37,959 nt of DNA, from positions 1 to 37,959 of IMG/VR virus record IMGVR_UViG_3300006104_000817. One strand, given 5' to 3'. Position numbers and translations under genes: made by a program. This DNA is from a virus. Below, piece by piece: positions 11,243 through 20,514 of this stretch. The notes under the pieces are model-generated. The model was not told the origin of the DNA, did no database searches, and saw nothing but the letters and a program-made list of their open reading frames with translations. Every line of letters begins with the position of its first letter. Within the stretch, counting starts at the first letter, position 1.

Positions 11243-11348
11243 ACTTCACCTTAGGACCGCTAAGTACGAAGTGTTTTAAAGCGGGCATGACACCACGATG
11301 CCGCCGGATACCGTAACCGACAAAACCAGATATGCCTTAGGGGTATCT
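11243..11348 (+). ncRNA. structured 5' leader of hsp20
   Basis: Three hairpins in a row: ACTTC..GAAGT enclosing CTTAG/CTAAG (11243-11272); GCGGGCAT/ATGCCGC with a bulged G (11281-11304); and AGATA..TATCT with an inner CC/GG (11328-11348). GATACC 11307-11312 can alternatively pair with GGTATC 11342-11347, competing with the third hairpin. No ORF is present. It could be a thermosensor, a riboswitch-like leader, a processed RNA or an mRNA stabiliser; no known family is recognised. Confidence 0.5.
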
Positions 11349-11390
11349 ATTTTAATGTAACATCTCGCTTAATTTACAAGGAGAAACACA

Positions 11391-11870
11391 ATGACTACAA
11401 AACCTTCGCTCGTCAAAAATCCCTGGAACACCAGTTATGTAACAATGGAAGATCTTCACAGAACAGTAGATCCGTTTAGTGTTGGTTTCGGTAATATGTT
11501 CAAACAAATGCAAGAACTATCAGACTCGGTTGTTAAGAATATTCCTAATTATCCCCCATACAATATCAAACAAGTCAATGAAAACAAGTATGTTATTGAA
11601 TTGGCTGTTGCTGGTTTTGCTAAACAAGATATTGAACTCACTATGGAAGGTAACAAACTCTTAATCAAAGGTTCTACCGTTGATTCTGGAATGAATGAAG
11701 ATAACGCATACATTTTTAAGGGTATTGCTGACCGCAATTTCACTCGTGCATTTACTTTGGCGGATTCTATTGAAATCAAAGATGCTGAATTAGTAAATGG
11801 TATGCTTAAAGTTTGGTTAGAAAACATTACCAAAGTTCAAGATTCTATTAAAAAAATTAGTATTAAGTAG
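11391..11870 (+). CDS. hsp20: Hsp20-family small heat-shock protein
   Basis: ATP-independent holdase chaperone, common in marine T4-like phages. The alpha-crystallin domain covers about residues 55-145, with YVIELAVAGFAKQDIELTMEGNKL split over its first strands and the family signature near ELVNGMLKVWLEN (GxLxV type). KKISIK ends the protein, resembling the C-terminal oligomerisation tail. The start 11391 follows AAGGAG. Transcribed from overlapping early and late promoters through a folded leader. Confidence 0.93.
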   Translation: MTTKPSLVKNPWNTSYVTMEDLHRTVDPFSVGFGNMFKQMQELSDSVVKNIPNYPPYNIKQVNENKYVIELAVAGFAKQDIELTMEGNKLLIKGSTVDSGMNEDNAYIFKGIADRNFTRAFTLADSIEIKDAELVNGMLKVWLENITKVQDSIKKISIK

Positions 11871-12782: not shown

Positions 12783-12857
12783 GGGTCTTTAGTTCAATGG
12801 TTAGAACGGGGTACTCATAATACTTTAACGGTGGTTCGAATCCACCAAGACCCACCA
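12783..12857 (+). tRNA. tRNA with CAT anticodon (Met, or Ile2)
   Basis: Acceptor GGGTCTT/AAGACCC, D stem GTTC/GAAC, anticodon stem GGGTA/TACTT with G-T pairs, 7-base loop CTCATAA, T arm GGTGG-TTCGAAT-CCACC, CCA encoded. The G1-C72 pair argues against initiator tRNA. One of the two CAT tRNAs in the window may be lysidine-modified Ile reading ATA. Confidence 0.9.
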
Positions 12858-12952
12858 TTATAAAAAATGAAAGAAAACTCCATAATCCAACCGTACCAAA
12901 AATTGCTCAATTACATGTCGGATTAATGATAGATTATAAGAAGGATATATGT

Positions 12953-13414
12953 ATGGAAAATTTTGCCCCAGAAAAGAAAAAAAAATATATTAACTTTTAT
13001 ATGTCTATAGCACAACAAGTATCTCAAATGTCGCAAGCCAGAAGGTTAAAAGTAGGTAGCATATTAGTAAAAGATGGTAATATTATTAGTTTTGGATGGA
13101 ATGGAATGCCTTCTGGTTGGGATAATAATTGTGAGTATGAGGTGTATCATGAACAAGAATCGGATCTTCCGCCAACATTAACGACTAAACCTGAGGTAAT
13201 TCATTCTGAATCCAATTGTTTGATGAAAGTTACCAGATCAAATCAATCCTCCGAGGGTTCCACGATGTTTCTTACTCATGCACCATGTATCCACTGTGCT
13301 AAACAAATTTATACGGCCGGCATCAAGGTGGTGTATTATGATGCAGATTGGCGGTCTAAAGAAGGCATAGACTTTTTGAATAAATGTGGTGTAATAGTTA
13401 ATCAAATTCTTTAA
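12953..13414 (+). CDS. cd: deoxycytidylate deaminase
   Basis: Converts dCMP to dUMP to feed thymidylate synthesis. Zinc site: His84 and catalytic Glu86 in VIHSESN (family HAE; here HSE), and Cys112 and Cys115 in APCIHCAKQIYTAGI. The N-terminal KVGSILVKDGNIISFGWNGMP is typical. At 153 aa it is slightly shorter than T4 Cd. The start at ATG 12953 follows AAGGA; the in-frame ATG 12926 lacks a ribosome-binding site. Confidence 0.93.
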   Translation: MENFAPEKKKKYINFYMSIAQQVSQMSQARRLKVGSILVKDGNIISFGWNGMPSGWDNNCEYEVYHEQESDLPPTLTTKPEVIHSESNCLMKVTRSNQSSEGSTMFLTHAPCIHCAKQIYTAGIKVVYYDADWRSKEGIDFLNKCGVIVNQIL

Positions 13415-13428
13415 GTTACATATGTAAC
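13415..13428 (+). promoter_or_regulatory. 14-bp perfect palindrome beside a late promoter
   Basis: GTTACATATGTAAC begins right after the dCMP deaminase stop and ends 6 nt before a TATAAATA box. As DNA it could be an operator; as RNA the stem would have almost no loop, so termination is unlikely. Confidence 0.4.
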
Positions 13429-13434
13429 ACAATA

Positions 13435-13442
13435 TATAAATA
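13435..13442 (+). promoter_or_regulatory. T4-type late promoter for speD
   Basis: TATAAATA, 54 nt upstream of the speD start. The expected RNA start near 13448 coincides with the first arm of the switch structure. Confidence 0.8.
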
Positions 13443-13450
13443 AACGTATT

Positions 13451-13491
13451 AAAAGGAACTCCTTTTAAGTTATATTATACTAAAAGGAGTT
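13451..13491 (+). promoter_or_regulatory. three-arm RNA switch hiding the speD ribosome-binding site
   Basis: AACTCCTTTTA (13457-13467) is an exact complement of TAAAAGGAGTT (13481-13491), which contains the speD Shine-Dalgarno AGGAG. The same CCTTTT can instead pair with AAAAGG (13451-13456) upstream. The two structures exclude each other: the first closes the ribosome-binding site, the second frees it. The ligand or trigger is unknown. Confidence 0.6.
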
Positions 13492-13495
13492 TAAA

Positions 13496-13852
13496 ATGGA
13501 ATACTGGGGACATCACATCATAATGGATGTTAAGGGATGTGACGTTAGAAATGCAACTAATCCAAATTTTATTAATAAATTTATCAAAGATTTAGTGTTA
13601 ATGATTAACATGGTACCTTGTGGAGAACCCCAATTGGTACATTTTGCAGATAACACTAACAAAGCAGGATGGACAGTAATTCAATTAATACAAACCTCAA
13701 GCATTGTAGGTCATTTCCTTGACGATTCTGGTGATTTATATCTGGATATCTTCAGTTGTAAACATTTTGATGAGGAAGTGGTAAAAGATGCTATAACCAG
13801 ATATTTCAATCCAGTTAGAATTAAGACCCAATTTATCCAGAGAAAAGCGTAA
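13496..13852 (+). CDS. speD: S-adenosylmethionine decarboxylase-like protein
   Basis: Pyruvoyl enzyme of polyamine synthesis that makes the aminopropyl donor for spermidine; speD is known from T4-like cyanophages. EYWGHHIIMDVKGC at the N-terminus and LYLDIFSCKHFD in the second half are family features. The self-cleavage region reads QTSSIVGHF, where the family usually has a Ser-His pair, so the processing serine may be one of the two here; this deserves care. Length is 118 aa, near bacterial class 1b enzymes. Late promoter and an RBS-sequestering leader lie upstream. Confidence 0.8.
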   Translation: MEYWGHHIIMDVKGCDVRNATNPNFINKFIKDLVLMINMVPCGEPQLVHFADNTNKAGWTVIQLIQTSSIVGHFLDDSGDLYLDIFSCKHFDEEVVKDAITRYFNPVRIKTQFIQRKA

Positions 13853-13858
13853 AAAAAG

Positions 13859-13866
13859 AATAAATA
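13859..13866 (+). promoter_or_regulatory. possible variant late promoter
   Basis: AATAAATA, one mismatch from TATAAATA, in the 36-nt gap between speD and the SprT-like gene and 22 nt before its start. Confidence 0.35.
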
Positions 13867-13888
13867 GTGATACAAGTAAGGACAAAAA

Positions 13889-14443
13889 ATGGAAATCAAA
13901 GTAATCAATAGTCCCAGTAAAAAATTCACTCCATATGTTTTGGACGCAGCCAATTTTTACTCTAACGAACTGATTACAAAACGATTATCCCAAAATATCT
14001 ACTTGGAAATCAAATTTAATTCTGATCTTGATGTGTATGGATATTCATCAATTGAAGGATATAATGATTCAAATAAAGCCAGAGAATTCTTAATTGAGTT
14101 AAATTCCGTCATAGGTGCTAAAGAAATACTAAGAACATTGGCCCATGAAATGGTTCATATAAAACAATATGCTTATAATGAAACCAATGAAACACTTTCT
14201 CGTTGGCGTGGTATTAAAGTAGATTATGATGCCATCGAATATTATTCTCAACCATGGGAATTGGAAGCCATGGCTTTAGAAGTTGGTTTATTCACAAGAT
14301 ATGTTAAAAAATGTAAATTATGGAACGTATTTGAGGAACTTTGTGATCCAGAATCACCCATCGTTCCTATTGCACTAGGATGGAAAAAAGTGAAGTGTAA
14401 ACAACAAAAGTTTAAAATCCCAGAAGGTCCAAGTATTTCCTAA
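13889..14443 (+). CDS. SprT-like zinc metalloprotease
   Basis: A 184-residue protein with HEMVH at residues 86-90, the zinc-binding and catalytic HExxH, preceded by LRTLAHEM. The third ligand may be one of the residues in WELEAMALEVG near 130. Resembles SprT-like phage peptidases; cellular SPRTN removes DNA-crosslinked proteins, but the phage substrate is unknown. TAAGGA precedes the start. Confidence 0.8.
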   Translation: MEIKVINSPSKKFTPYVLDAANFYSNELITKRLSQNIYLEIKFNSDLDVYGYSSIEGYNDSNKAREFLIELNSVIGAKEILRTLAHEMVHIKQYAYNETNETLSRWRGIKVDYDAIEYYSQPWELEAMALEVGLFTRYVKKCKLWNVFEELCDPESPIVPIALGWKKVKCKQQKFKIPEGPSIS

Positions 14444-14454
14444 ATGCTATATTT

Positions 14455-14462
14455 TCTAAATA
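14455..14462 (+). promoter_or_regulatory. possible variant late promoter
   Basis: TCTAAATA, one mismatch from the late consensus, 28 nt upstream of the cysteine peptidase gene. Confidence 0.35.
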
Positions 14463-14490
14463 ATGGTATACTCCATAAAGGAATACTACC

Positions 14491-15270
14491 ATGTTTAAAA
14501 AATATCACTGGACTCGGGACTTTCATGATTCTCGTGATCATTATGCACAAACCTCACAACACTTCACGCTAGTTGCACCTGAATCTATACCATCTTCTGT
14601 TGATCTAAGAAAGTTCTGTTCTCCTGTTGCTGACCAAGGAATATTAGGATCATGTACAGGAAATGCTTTAGTTGGTGCTATGGAATTCTTAGAAAATAAA
14701 TTAAGCGAATATGAACAAAATGGCCAATTTGTTAATTTGAGTAGATTATTTGTCTATTATAACGAAAGAGATATTGAAGGTGATATTGGTCATGATGGTG
14801 GTGCCCAAATCAGTACAGGAATAAAAGTTTTAGCAAACACAGGAGTATGTGCCGAAGCATTTTGGCCTTATAGTATAGATAATTTTGTTGTTAAGCCTAC
14901 AGTCGATTCATATAATGATGCGGCATCTAGAAAAATTGCGGCATATGCTAGAGTGACTCGTGATAATGGAATTATTGATATTAAAAGAGTTTTGGCTTCA
15001 GGATATCCAATTGTTTTTGGCTTTGTAGTTTACAATTCCTTTCAGACCGATGCTGTATCAGATACAGGTAATGCTGATATGCCAAGTGCATCAGATGAAA
15101 AAATTGGTGGCCATGCAGTTTTGATGGTAGGATATGATGACGCAACAAATCGTGTTTTGGTTCGTAATTCTTGGGGTGATGCATGGGGCCAAAAAGGATA
15201 CTTTACATTACCATATGAATATGTTGTTAGTCATGATTTAGCCAACGATTTGTGGACAATCAGCAAATAA
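14491..15270 (+). CDS. papain-like (C1A) cysteine peptidase
   Basis: A 259-residue peptidase with the complete C1A catalytic set: VADQGILGSCTGNA with Cys55 and its oxyanion Gln, GGHAVLMVGYD with His208, and RNSWGDAWGQKGY with Asn226. There is no signal peptide and no long prodomain, so it would act in the host cytoplasm or be packaged. AAAGGA precedes the start. A phage-encoded papain-family enzyme is uncommon; the target may be a host protein or a virion precursor. Confidence 0.93.
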   Translation: MFKKYHWTRDFHDSRDHYAQTSQHFTLVAPESIPSSVDLRKFCSPVADQGILGSCTGNALVGAMEFLENKLSEYEQNGQFVNLSRLFVYYNERDIEGDIGHDGGAQISTGIKVLANTGVCAEAFWPYSIDNFVVKPTVDSYNDAASRKIAAYARVTRDNGIIDIKRVLASGYPIVFGFVVYNSFQTDAVSDTGNADMPSASDEKIGGHAVLMVGYDDATNRVLVRNSWGDAWGQKGYFTLPYEYVVSHDLANDLWTISK

Positions 15271-15319
15271 TTAACTAGAAGAACACTATATACTAATATT
15301 AACTTTTTGAGATTAATTG

Positions 15320-16639
15320 ATGAAAAAATATATACTTATTTCCCTAATCTTTATTCTTACAGGATGTGCTTCCTTGACTGAAATTACCAGAACAACTAAA
15401 CCAACAGATAATGTACAGGATGATAGTTCCATTGAATTATCTGGTTACAAATACGATGAGGCTCAACAATTTATTGAAATGTGTGTTGAATTGAATGACC
15501 AAGATGATAGACTTAATTATGGAAATATGCCCAATTCTATTTCAAATATTGATCCTACTAAATGGATACAGATATATGATTCTCGATCAGATGTTTCTGA
15601 TAAAGTAGCCACATACAAAAATAATCCCGATTCTAAAAATCCTTGGCATAAATTGTATGATATTATAATTAAAAATGCAGATAAAAAATATCCAAAAGGA
15701 TGGAATAAAAATACACTAGCCAATGATCCCTCTTTAAATGGATTTGGTCCTTGGCAAAATGCTTGGATACTTTATCAGGGTGTAGGTAAATATGCAGGTT
15801 CATATACAATAGCAATTCGCGGTACTGTAATATCTTCTGTTCCTTCTGCCATTGAAGATGTTCTTACTAATCCAGTTTCTGCCCAAAACTTCTTAAGTAA
15901 TAAAGTACAATTTGTATCTTTATTTTCGCCCGATGCTGCTGTTCATTCAGGATTTGCTCATGCCACATTTACATTAATGCTTGATGAAAATTTTGGCATT
16001 TTGAAAATATTACACGATAAAGTTCCAACAAATTTGAATGTTTACATCACGGGTCACTCTCAAGGTGCTGCCATGGTATCTTTAGTTCATGCCTTTTTAC
16101 ATTATGCTATGATTAACGATAAAAAAGGATCTCCTGTGTTTGGGTTTGAAACAACACAATACAAACTAAAGAGTTATGGATTTGCTCAACCTAAACCAGG
16201 AAATATTTCGTTTGCTGCTGATTTTGCCAGAATAACACAGAAGTACGATAATGCTATTGTAATTAATAATGATATAGATTTTGTTCCTAAGACACCAGCA
16301 ACATTAGAACAGGGTGAAGATTGGAGTCAGTCTTTACAAGGAAGTTCGTTATCGTCAAAAATTATTAAATATATTACTGAATTGAATTTGAATATTAGGA
16401 AGAAATTATCTACTGTAATTGAATCTGATACAATTAAATTTGCTTCGGGTTATGGTTTATTTTATAATTATAGTGAATTAAAACCTCTTATCGGTCCCCA
16501 AGCAGTATCGTCTTTTGATTTTTCTCCTGCGGGAAGGGTTATAATTGTATCAGGAACACCAGGCGATCCTCCTGATATATTTGGTCAACATCATACGTCA
16601 GTTTATCGTAAGTTGATACATGATCAATTAAACTGGTAA
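15320..16639 (+). CDS. lipoprotein lipase-like hydrolase (lipase class 3)
   Basis: A 439-residue alpha/beta hydrolase with a lipoprotein signal: MKKYILISLIFILTGC, with LTGC as lipobox. The catalytic triad is visible: nucleophile Ser247 in TGHSQGAA, Asp320 in DIDFVPKTP (class 3 DxVPxxP), and His424 or His425 in FGQHHTSVYR. It would be membrane-anchored outside the cytoplasm and could hydrolyse phospholipid or lipopolysaccharide esters. Roles in lysis, exclusion of other phages or envelope change are inference. It converges on the minus-strand cassette downstream. Confidence 0.85.
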   Translation: MKKYILISLIFILTGCASLTEITRTTKPTDNVQDDSSIELSGYKYDEAQQFIEMCVELNDQDDRLNYGNMPNSISNIDPTKWIQIYDSRSDVSDKVATYKNNPDSKNPWHKLYDIIIKNADKKYPKGWNKNTLANDPSLNGFGPWQNAWILYQGVGKYAGSYTIAIRGTVISSVPSAIEDVLTNPVSAQNFLSNKVQFVSLFSPDAAVHSGFAHATFTLMLDENFGILKILHDKVPTNLNVYITGHSQGAAMVSLVHAFLHYAMINDKKGSPVFGFETTQYKLKSYGFAQPKPGNISFAADFARITQKYDNAIVINNDIDFVPKTPATLEQGEDWSQSLQGSSLSSKIIKYITELNLNIRKKLSTVIESDTIKFASGYGLFYNYSELKPLIGPQAVSSFDFSPAGRVIIVSGTPGDPPDIFGQHHTSVYRKLIHDQLNW

Positions 16640-17555: not shown

Positions 17556-17870
17556 ATGAAAATTCTAGCGTTTAAATTAATTACAGGTGAAGAAGTTCTT
17601 GCCGAAATCGAAACTGAATCCGAAACCGAATTTGTTCTTGTTAATCCAGTTGGCATTGCTGTTGTCCGTGATCCAAAAACTGGACAACCACAAGTTGGCT
17701 TCGCACCTTTTCCTATCCATGCTGAACAAAAAAGTGGATCTACCATTGTATTATCTAAGAAAATTGTGGTATATAATTATGTACCAGCCGAAGATTTTAT
17801 CACCAATTACAATTCTATCTTTGGAACAGGATTGATTGTTCCCCCTAAAAAACAAATCATCACCGGTTAA
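17556..17870 (+). CDS. conserved phage protein, possible LSm-like fold
   Basis: A 104-residue protein with FKLITGEEVLAEIE, FVLVNPVGIAVV and a later KKIVVYNYVP segment: five or so strands in the Sm-like order. It resembles the protein at 484 in its opening pattern and may be a distant paralogue. The start follows GAGG, and its stop overlaps the polymerase start by one base, placing it in the gene 43 operon. Function unknown; RNA binding would be inference. Confidence 0.75.
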   Translation: MKILAFKLITGEEVLAEIETESETEFVLVNPVGIAVVRDPKTGQPQVGFAPFPIHAEQKSGSTIVLSKKIVVYNYVPAEDFITNYNSIFGTGLIVPPKKQIITG

Positions 17871-19360
17871 TGGGCTTCTATACATCAGTCCAGTGCCTTG
17901 GTAATAATATTCTTTACCGAGGCGTAATAGATGGCAAGAGGGTTAAGGCAAGAATAAATTATTCACCTTCTCTCTTTGTGCCATCTAAGAATGTAACCAA
18001 CTTTACTTCACTCGATGGTATATACCTAGACCGGAAAGTCTTTGGTGACATCAGTGAAGCCCGTGATTACATCAAGCAATTTAAAGATGTTGATAATTCC
18101 CATAAGATATATGGAAATAACAGGTTTGAATATGCTTATATTGCTGATCAACATCAAGGTATGGTAGAATGGGACCAAGATAAGATTTTGATTGGTGTAA
18201 TTGATATTGAGGTTAGTTCGGAAAATGGATTTCCAAATCCTTATGATGCTAATGAGCCCATCACAGCAATTACTATTACATATCTCAATGGCGATACTTA
18301 TGCTTTTGGATGCGGTGATTACCAAGTTCAGAATAAAGAATTATATGTAAAGTGTAAAGATGAATATACTTTGTGTAAAAAATTCATGGAACTATGGAAA
18401 GCCAAGTGTCCTGATATTCTTACTGGATGGAATACAAAATTCTTTGATGTTCCTTATATCATAAACCGATTTAAAAAAATTCTAGGTGAAGATGAAGCAA
18501 AAAAATTATCTCCTTGGGGTCATATTTCCGAACGCCAAGCATTTGTATCTGGTAGACAGTTACTAGCATATGATATTCTAGGTGTATCATCACTTGATTA
18601 TATTGAACTATACAAATGGTATGCTCCATCAGGTAAATCACAAGAATCATATAAGTTAAATTCTATTGCCAATGTTGAACTCGGTGAAAGTAAATTATCG
18701 TTTGAAGAATATGATACACTGAATGAATTATATCGATTGAACTTTCAAAAATTTTTGGAATATAACATAAAAGATGTGGAACTCATTATAAAATTGGAAG
18801 ATAAGTTGAAGTTATTGGAATTAGCAATTACTTTAGCCTATGATACTAAATCTAATTATGATGATGTATTTGCTCAAACTAGAATGTGGGATGCATTAAC
18901 ATACTCTTATCTGTTAGAACGAAATATCATTGTACCACCTAAGATCACTAAAGATAAAGATGCTTCTTTTGAAGGTGCATATGTTAAAAGTCCTCAAGTA
19001 GGTAAACATGATTGGGTTGCTTCTTTCGATTTGGATTCTCTCTATCCTCATCTCCTGATGCAGTACAATGTAAGTCCAGAAACATTAATCCAACCAGAAA
19101 ATTATACGCAAGAAATGCTTGATATTCTTTCTTCTGGAATTTCTGTTGATAAGATGTTAAAAAAAGAAGTTGATACCTCCAAATTAGTAAATGCAACAAT
19201 CACACCTAACGGCCAATTTTTTAGAACAGATCATCAAGGATTTCTGCCCAAGATGATGGAAGAGATGTACCAAGATCGGAAGAAATTTAAGAATTTAATG
19301 CTTCAAGCAAAACAAGATTATGAAAATGTTTTAACGGAACTTGAAAAAAGAGGATTGTAA
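17870..19360 (+). CDS. 43: DNA polymerase gp43, N-terminal piece (exonuclease and first half of palm)
   Basis: Family B replicative polymerase, first part, 496 aa. Exonuclease motifs: DIE at 112-114, TGWNTKFFD at about 185-193, and YNIKDVE at about 298-304. Polymerase motif A is SFDLDSLYP at about 385-393. It ends at TAA 19358-19360 soon after KKFKNLMLQAKQDYE, in the fingers and before motif B, so it cannot polymerise alone. The remainder is encoded from 19401. Split polymerase genes (43A/43B) are known in some Aeromonas T4-like phages, where a homing endonuclease lies between the halves; here only about 40 nt separates them. Confidence 0.9.
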   Translation: MGFYTSVQCLGNNILYRGVIDGKRVKARINYSPSLFVPSKNVTNFTSLDGIYLDRKVFGDISEARDYIKQFKDVDNSHKIYGNNRFEYAYIADQHQGMVEWDQDKILIGVIDIEVSSENGFPNPYDANEPITAITITYLNGDTYAFGCGDYQVQNKELYVKCKDEYTLCKKFMELWKAKCPDILTGWNTKFFDVPYIINRFKKILGEDEAKKLSPWGHISERQAFVSGRQLLAYDILGVSSLDYIELYKWYAPSGKSQESYKLNSIANVELGESKLSFEEYDTLNELYRLNFQKFLEYNIKDVELIIKLEDKLKLLELAITLAYDTKSNYDDVFAQTRMWDALTYSYLLERNIIVPPKITKDKDASFEGAYVKSPQVGKHDWVASFDLDSLYPHLLMQYNVSPETLIQPENYTQEMLDILSSGISVDKMLKKEVDTSKLVNATITPNGQFFRTDHQGFLPKMMEEMYQDRKKFKNLMLQAKQDYENVLTELEKRGL

Positions 19361-19400: not shown

Positions 19401-20514
19401 TTGAAATTATTAAAAGATATGTCTGATTCAGAATTGATTGATTATAAACATGAACTGGAAAGGAGAGTTGCGAAATATGATAATTTGCAACTTGCGAAAA
19501 AGGTGTCACTTTAACTCCGCTTACGGCGCACTTGGCTCCCCATATTTTAGATTCTATGATTTAAGAATGGCACTTGCTGTTACATTGTCTGGTCAGTTCT
19601 CTATTCGTTGGATTGAGGCTAAGATTAATGAATACATGAATAAGTTATTAGGAACTGATGCAGATTATGTTATTGCTTCGGACACAGATTCAATTTATTT
19701 AAGACTTGGTGATTTAGTTAAGAAAATTTATAGTGATGATGTTTCTGTTATAATGAATCCTAATAAAATAATCGAATTCATGGACAAAGTGTGTGAAGAT
19801 AAAATTAAACCATATATCGATAAATCATTTCAAGAATTGGCTGACTATGTTCATGCTTATGACCAGAAGATGCGGATGAAACGAGAAGCATTGGCAGACA
19901 AAGGTATCTGGACTGCTAAGAAGCGTTATATTCTTAATGTGTACAACAATGAGGGTATTACATATAACGAACCACACATGAAAGTAATGGGTTTGGAAAT
20001 GATCAAATCTTCTACTCCTCAAGCAATTCGAGTTAAGATGTCGGAAGCTATTAAGTTAATGTTATCTGGAACTGAAGATGATATACATAAGTTTATTGTT
20101 GATTTTAAAGAAGAATTTAGTAAGTTGCCCGCGGAAGAGATTTCTTCACCTCGAGGACTCAACGGATTGAATAAATACTCTGATGCTGCTACCCTATTTA
20201 AGTTGGGAACACCAATTCATGTTAGGGGTGCTATACTTTACAATCAATTTTTAAAAGACAATAAACTCACTAAAAAATATCCACTCATACAAGAAGGCGA
20301 GAAAATCAAGTTTACTTACTTGAAGATGCCCAATCATTTGAAAAATAATGTAATATCATATCCATCTCGTCTACCAAAAGAATTTAAATTACAAGAATAT
20401 ATTGACTATGATATGCAGTTCTCTAAAGCGTTCATAGATCCTATTAAGATAATTTTAGATTGTATGGGATGGAAAATAGAAAAGATGAGTACACTGGATA
20501 CATTTTTTGGATGA
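19401..20514 (+). CDS. 43: DNA polymerase gp43, C-terminal piece with an apparent +1 frameshift
   Basis: Carries motif B (KKVSLNSAYGALGSP), motif C ASDTDSIYL and the thumb with AKKRYILNVYNNEG and MGLEMIKSSTP. The first frame begins at TTG 19401 behind AAGGTGA and reads LLKDMSDSELIDYKHELER and on to KKVSL, then meets TAA 19512. A +1 shift there gives NSAYGALG and an open frame to 20514. The start codon is uncertain (TTG 19401, ATG 19419 or GTG 19392). A start inside the body frame (ATG 19438) would lose the essential Lys of motif B. The two pieces must associate, as in other split family B enzymes. Confidence 0.85.
19500..19515 (+). other. prfB-like +1 frameshift site in gene 43
   Basis: AAGGTG, three bases (TCA), then CTT TAA C. 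The bacterial RF2 gene uses an internal Shine-Dalgarno, three bases, then CTT TGA C to shift +1. The spacing and slip codon are the same; the stop is TAA instead of TGA. Slipping CTT to TTT continues as AAC TCC GCT TAC, the N-S-A-Y of polymerase motif B. Confidence 0.65.

Follow-up and report, generated by a model that had tools for sequence, protein, structure and literature searches.

The 81 nt that separate the stop codon of a dCMP deaminase gene from the AUG of a speD-family gene hold an exact T4 late promoter box, followed by three related segments, TTAAAAGGA, AACTCCTTTTA and TAAAAGGAGTT (Table 1). Two of these contain a Shine-Dalgarno (SD) sequence and can pair with the one that lies in between. 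This poses the question whether the speD leader is a translational switch, a simple repressor, or a start site that could be used in either of its folds.

The leader was analysed in its context, the window, which is the whole 37,959-base virus record. The window carries a T4-like gene set with a split T4-type DNA polymerase, a clamp loader, an SbcC-like recombination protein and a DnaB-type helicase, together with four tRNAs. We judge its source to be a T4-like phage, of freshwater origin by its accompanying genes. The polymerase occupies two ORFs (17870-19360 and 19438-20514) with ~77 nt between them, which cover positions 7-497 and 520-852 of the profile of a single family. Downstream of speD, the window encodes a papain-family peptidase (14491-15270) and, at 15317-16639, a protein that combines a lipoprotein-like signal with a lipase-like motif, GHSQGA. 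Among the related contigs searched, both proteins are confined to the window's own population. A perfect 14-nt palindrome, GTTACATATGTAAC (13415-13428), lies directly 3' of the deaminase stop codon and 5' of the late promoter; it may be due to chance.

Architecture and predicted folding of the speD leader

Table 1. Features of the speD leader and the adjoining genes (positions in the window).
Feature	Position	Strand	Basis
dCMP deaminase gene, upstream of speD	12926-13414	+	Pfam dCMP_cyt_deam_1, 2.1e-19
T4-type late promoter box, TATAAATA	13435-13442	+	Exact consensus; predicted transcription start ~13448
Hairpin H1, TTAAAAGGA-AC-TCCTTTTAA	13449-13468	+	Predicted RNA fold with 8 bp and a loop of 4 nt, in which SD1 is hidden; -6.5 kcal/mol at 37 °C
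SD1, AAAAGGA	13451-13457	+	Near the SD position after the late box in relatives' late-promoter speD leaders
Middle arm (anti-SD), 5' strand of hairpin H2, AACTCCTTTTA	13457-13467	+	Exact complement
3' strand of H2, holds SD2 (AAGGAG, 13484-13489), TAAAAGGAGTT	13481-13491	+	Exact complement; predicted SD2 unpaired probability ≤0.004 at 37 °C
speD-family gene, 118 aa; start codon 13496-13498	13496-13852	+	Pfam AdoMet_dc, 5.5e-17; PHROG 3125, 4.2e-23; diagnostic residues

A preliminary description of this DNA had placed mutually exclusive hairpins at 13435-13498, and both the location and the pairing partners are correct. The middle arm and the strand holding SD2 are exact reverse complements over 11 nt, separated by a 13-nt loop, and SD2 ends 6 nt before the speD ATG. 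The second copy of the ribosome-binding sequence, which was said to pair with the same complement, is likewise present: TTAAAAGGA (13449-13457) is the exact complement of TCCTTTTAA (13460-13468), which follows after 2 nt, and it therefore competes with SD2 for the middle arm. As this arm is shared, H1 and H2 do exclude each other. The 8-mer TAAAAGGA occurs in the leader in direct, inverted and direct copies.

In T4 late promoters, the 8-bp box lies about one helical turn upstream of the transcription start, with its first base at -13 (PMC2988020). Applied to the box upstream of speD, this rule predicts an RNA start near 13448, in agreement with the proposal that RNA from the adjacent late promoter would begin with the first arm. 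The predicted late RNA has only ~48 nt ahead of the AUG. A sigma-70-like match within the leader is at chance level, and no intrinsic terminator, in the form of a G+C-rich stem with a T run, was found in 12850-14500.

In random versions of the leader built on its dinucleotide make-up, a complement of at least 11 nt to this SD arises at a frequency of 9.5e-5. This per-leader frequency, taken over ~45-50 genes, amounts to about half a percent for the whole window. In surveys of leaders from related phages, for which gene starts were called by simple rules, none of the 926 other SD-bearing leaders has an SD stem of more than 7 bp, leaving the window leader as the sole case among 927 distinct ones. 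Since the complement is rare in random leaders and unmatched among the 927, the hairpin is very unlikely to be a random occurrence. A mutational origin, by duplication or template switch, would nevertheless require no selection. The upstream palindrome on the SD1 side is unremarkable when taken alone, because shuffled windows hold about one of this kind by chance.

A strict scan of 1201 leaders found the two-SD arrangement in no other leader and lends no support to the use of split sites by further genes in these phages. When viral contigs were scanned for direct-inverted-direct motifs, the hits were mostly transcription terminators before small genes, coding sequence and self-contained upstream hairpins. 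At two of the loci (L225 and L182) some pairing with an SD would be possible, and the two form no family.

Fold energies were predicted with ViennaRNA, whose model does not include the ribosome. For RNA starting at 13448, the H2 fold is predicted at -14.8 kcal/mol at 37 °C, compared with -6.5 kcal/mol for H1; the 12-bp helix of H2 is predicted at -12.6. H1 is the predicted fold until ~13485 has been transcribed, and H2 dominates afterwards. Because the energy gap is ~8 kcal/mol, the two hairpins are not in a poised equilibrium. The translational switch envisaged earlier thus retains its two exclusive hairpins and a predicted hidden SD2, but loses the balance between the folds. The preliminary description had also not taken into account that, with SD2 hidden, SD1 stays free next to the hairpin. 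SD2 is predicted to be still mostly paired at 75 °C, and an RNA thermometer was discarded since the SD stem does not melt (SD2 unpaired probability ≤0.09 at 70 °C).

The speD product and the leaders of its relatives

Phage members of the SAM-decarboxylase family frequently act on ornithine or arginine in place of SAM (PMC9992855). For the SpeDC ornithine decarboxylase, the text of PMC10407285 describes four diagnostic residues, Gln, Thr, Phe and Tyr, around the pyruvoyl Ser. Compared with this description, the speD-family protein has VIQL, T67 before S68, F74 after H73, and Y82. By these residues, the gene product is probably a SpeDC-type ornithine decarboxylase, which would make putrescine rather than decarboxylated SAM.

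Further copies of the leader were found only in two IMG/VR records (3300025430 and 3300003813), which are 99.98-100% identical to the window and belong to the same population. Their leaders show no difference from that of the window, and every copy retains intact arms. The next SpeD has 65% protein identity and lacks such a leader. A DNA-polymerase scan combined with a SpeD profile scan yielded 50 other distinct speD leaders of phages, all of which are without the element. For the closest proteins (L044 and L041, 64-65% identity), speD begins either before the deaminase gene has ended or directly next to its end. In four leaders (L066, L068, L107 and L127), a late-type box comes after a tRNA-like stretch; the SD lies 7-8 nt beyond the box and the ATG 5-6 nt beyond the SD. 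In L066, L068 and L107, the box is CATAAATA and the SD is AAGGA, which places the SD almost at the 5' end of the RNA. The gap between box and AAGGA is 10 nt for SD1 of the window compared with 7-8 nt in these three leaders, and deleting 31-32 nt (~13458-13489) would turn the window leader into one of their kind. These sequence comparisons suggest an insertion that would have brought the middle arm and SD2 into the stretch between SD1 and the ATG.

Another late-type leader, TTGGGTC...TAAGGAGAGACCTAATG, was seen at L062:4711, L118:3359, L130:3359, L089:5810 and L111:3359, where it precedes the homologue of window 13889-14443. Here, a short hairpin would place the SD in its loop.

Possible modes of translation from the speD leader

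The speD leader is probably a variant of the hairpins known to tune translation in T4 and not a polyamine or SAM sensor. In T4 genes 38 and 25, a hairpin between the SD and the AUG shortens the distance between them (PMC3014915). We tentatively favour, at somewhat less than even confidence, a structured start site resembling that of these genes, in which two equivalent SDs flank one complement and SD1 would be used. In the stable fold H2, SD2 would be buried, whereas SD1, at the base of the stem, would remain free. SD1 lies 38 nt from the AUG along the sequence, and with the 31 nt of the hairpin (13459-13489) looped out this distance would fall to 7 nt, which is the register of SD2; counted from the first A of AAGGA, the AUG is 12 nt away for SD2 and likewise 12 nt away for SD1 with 13459-13489 looped out. 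In the transient fold H1, which would form first during transcription, SD1 would be buried and SD2 free. Either fold would be able to present one SD, and speD would be translated mainly from late mRNA without the need for a ligand. The element probably originated by local duplication or template-switch insertion between an ancestral SD and the start codon. The direct-inverted-direct copies of TAAAAGGA resemble the product of such an event, which supports the bridged site, as does the location of SD1 close to that of the SD in the late-promoter speD leaders of relatives.

Predicted binding energies are consistent with this. With H2 kept, binding of SD1 to the 16S tail is predicted at -17.8 compared with -14.8 kcal/mol for the free RNA, a gain of 3.0 kcal/mol, and the SD2-bound form with H1 is about neutral (-14.7 versus -14.8), so that in principle an SD would be available in each of the two folds. 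For comparison, T4 gene 38 is predicted on this scale to go from -16.7 to -17.7 with its hairpin kept (a gain of 1.0), and the repressed read-through RNA of T4 gene e from -14.9 to -10.2 (a loss of 4.7). By these models, the simplest reading would be that the start site is functional whichever hairpin forms, and is not an on/off switch. It is possible, if doubtful, that initiation is independent of conformation, in which case each exclusive fold would present one SD at the same distance from the AUG, and initiation would be insensitive to the fold or tuned by the difference between the SDs. Several features speak against bridging. With 6 pairs, SD2 is the stronger of the two SDs (SD1 has 5), the complete H2 shares at its base the final nucleotides of SD1 and has to fray there, the late RNA has only ~8 nt of single-stranded RNA before H2, which leaves little room for the ribosome, and the arrangement is limited to one phage population.

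As in T4 genes 38 and 25, the leader belongs to a T4-like phage and has an upstream SD followed by a distance-shortening hairpin before the AUG. With H2 kept as predicted, the distant SD1 would be brought to a functional distance, the spacing being shortened from 38 to 7 nt, compared with 22 to 5 and 27 to 11 in the T4 genes. In contrast to these genes, whose hairpins hide no better SD, the 3' strand of the speD hairpin is itself an SD (SD2, 13484-13489), and the middle arm pairs either way. Because the gene 38/25 hairpin holds no second SD, we liken the speD leader to this kind without counting it as a member. A precedent for a split ribosome site is E. coli thrS (PMC3936740), where the ribosome likewise binds two single-stranded segments and makes room for the hairpin that lies between them. 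However, the single-stranded upstream domain of thrS has 24 nt compared with ~8 nt in the speD leader, and neither a second SD nor an alternative hairpin, both of which the speD leader has, is described for thrS.

The main rival to the bridged site is simple repression by H2, which requires that SD1 is unused. Here, H2 would bury SD2 and keep speD translation low, and transient H1, predicted until RNA polymerase has moved beyond ~13485, would give a brief window in the nascent RNA. Perfect SD hairpins usually repress, the H2 helix is stable with SD2 less than 1% unpaired at 37 °C, only the ~8 nt before H2 are free, and T4 genes e, soc, 49 and I-TevI are repressed by a hidden SD in the same manner (PMC3014915). 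Repression would leave an intact and well-placed SD1 unexplained, however, and the leader's own late promoter would serve a silenced mRNA; we regard it as a serious but rather unlikely explanation. Alternatively, a replication template switch or duplication may have left the repeat as a neutral scar with little effect and no selection. The TAAAAGGA copies are in line with such an origin, as are the restriction to one population and the absence from the 50 other speD leaders. Nevertheless, a ribosome site covered by an 11-bp stem is unlikely to be left entirely unaffected, and the unbroken arms in all copies also argue against a scar, though the records are nearly identical. We consider a purely neutral element improbable.

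A T4 lysozyme-type control is much less probable still. In T4 gene e, read-through RNA folds so as to hide the SD, and the 5' strand is missing from the late RNA (PMC3014915). Like genes e, soc, 49 and I-TevI, speD has an SD in the 3' strand of a hairpin and a late promoter immediately upstream, and the SD is predicted to be sequestered in read-through RNA. The latter has an extra 5-bp helix around the start site (GUAUU/AAUAC, ~2.4 kcal/mol), which is lost from RNA starting at 13448. In a lysozyme-type mechanism, read-through RNA would be blocked and late RNA without the 5' strand translated. This fails because the late RNA keeps the 5' arm. The predicted start at 13448 is upstream of 13457-13467, placing the arm at ~+10 to +20 with H2 kept, whereas the arm of T4 gene e lies between box and start. 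SD2 is predicted to be paired for every tested start from 13444 to 13456, and the early/late logic of the T4 genes does not apply to speD. The least probable of the explanations, and one we give hardly any credence, is a riboswitch for SAM or polyamine. Such a response had been suggested at first and is not borne out. Only the gene function and the two exclusive folds favour it. The ~48-nt predicted late leader has no aptamer-sized domain, Rfam gives no match to the leader at the gathering score, and the sole match at a relaxed threshold is to a spurious microRNA model (18.2 bits versus a cut-off of 83). In addition, the element is not conserved among speD leaders, the energy gap between H1 and H2 is large, and a SAM-responsive switch is unlikely because the enzyme is probably an ornithine decarboxylase. 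Control by ribosome traffic, the other trigger that had been proposed, is also unlikely, since the deaminase gene already ends 81 nt before the AUG.

If SD1 is used through the hairpin, the leader would constitute a compact natural bridged ribosome site that contains its own alternative, and would provide a simple test of whether SD hiding always represses. The leader also cautions that an SD hairpin need not be an OFF switch. Its importance for the regulation of polyamine synthesis is small, because it is found in one phage population only.

A conserved leader upstream of hsp20

The window contains a further structured leader (11327-11393), which precedes hsp20 (gene 11391-11870). It comprises a stem-loop of variable sequence, a T run, and CUYGCUU facing AAGGAG with one bulged G. 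The leader is conserved in relatives (L108:21-91, L111:1755-1827, L123:425-490, L014:3160-3234 and about 20 more). Rfam gave no match at the gathering score in the 9 records scanned; a relaxed scan of the window's hsp20 leader returned freshwater-2 with 17.5 bits versus 49.9. The SD helix is kept in all 23 aligned sequences, and in two of them (L095 and L014) a U-A pair is replaced by A-U, a compensatory change. UYGCU opposite an SD is the motif of the ROSE thermometer. The conserved hsp20 leader is a candidate heat-sensing RNA in a phage hsp20 mRNA, and as a ROSE-like element it may be of more interest than the speD leader.
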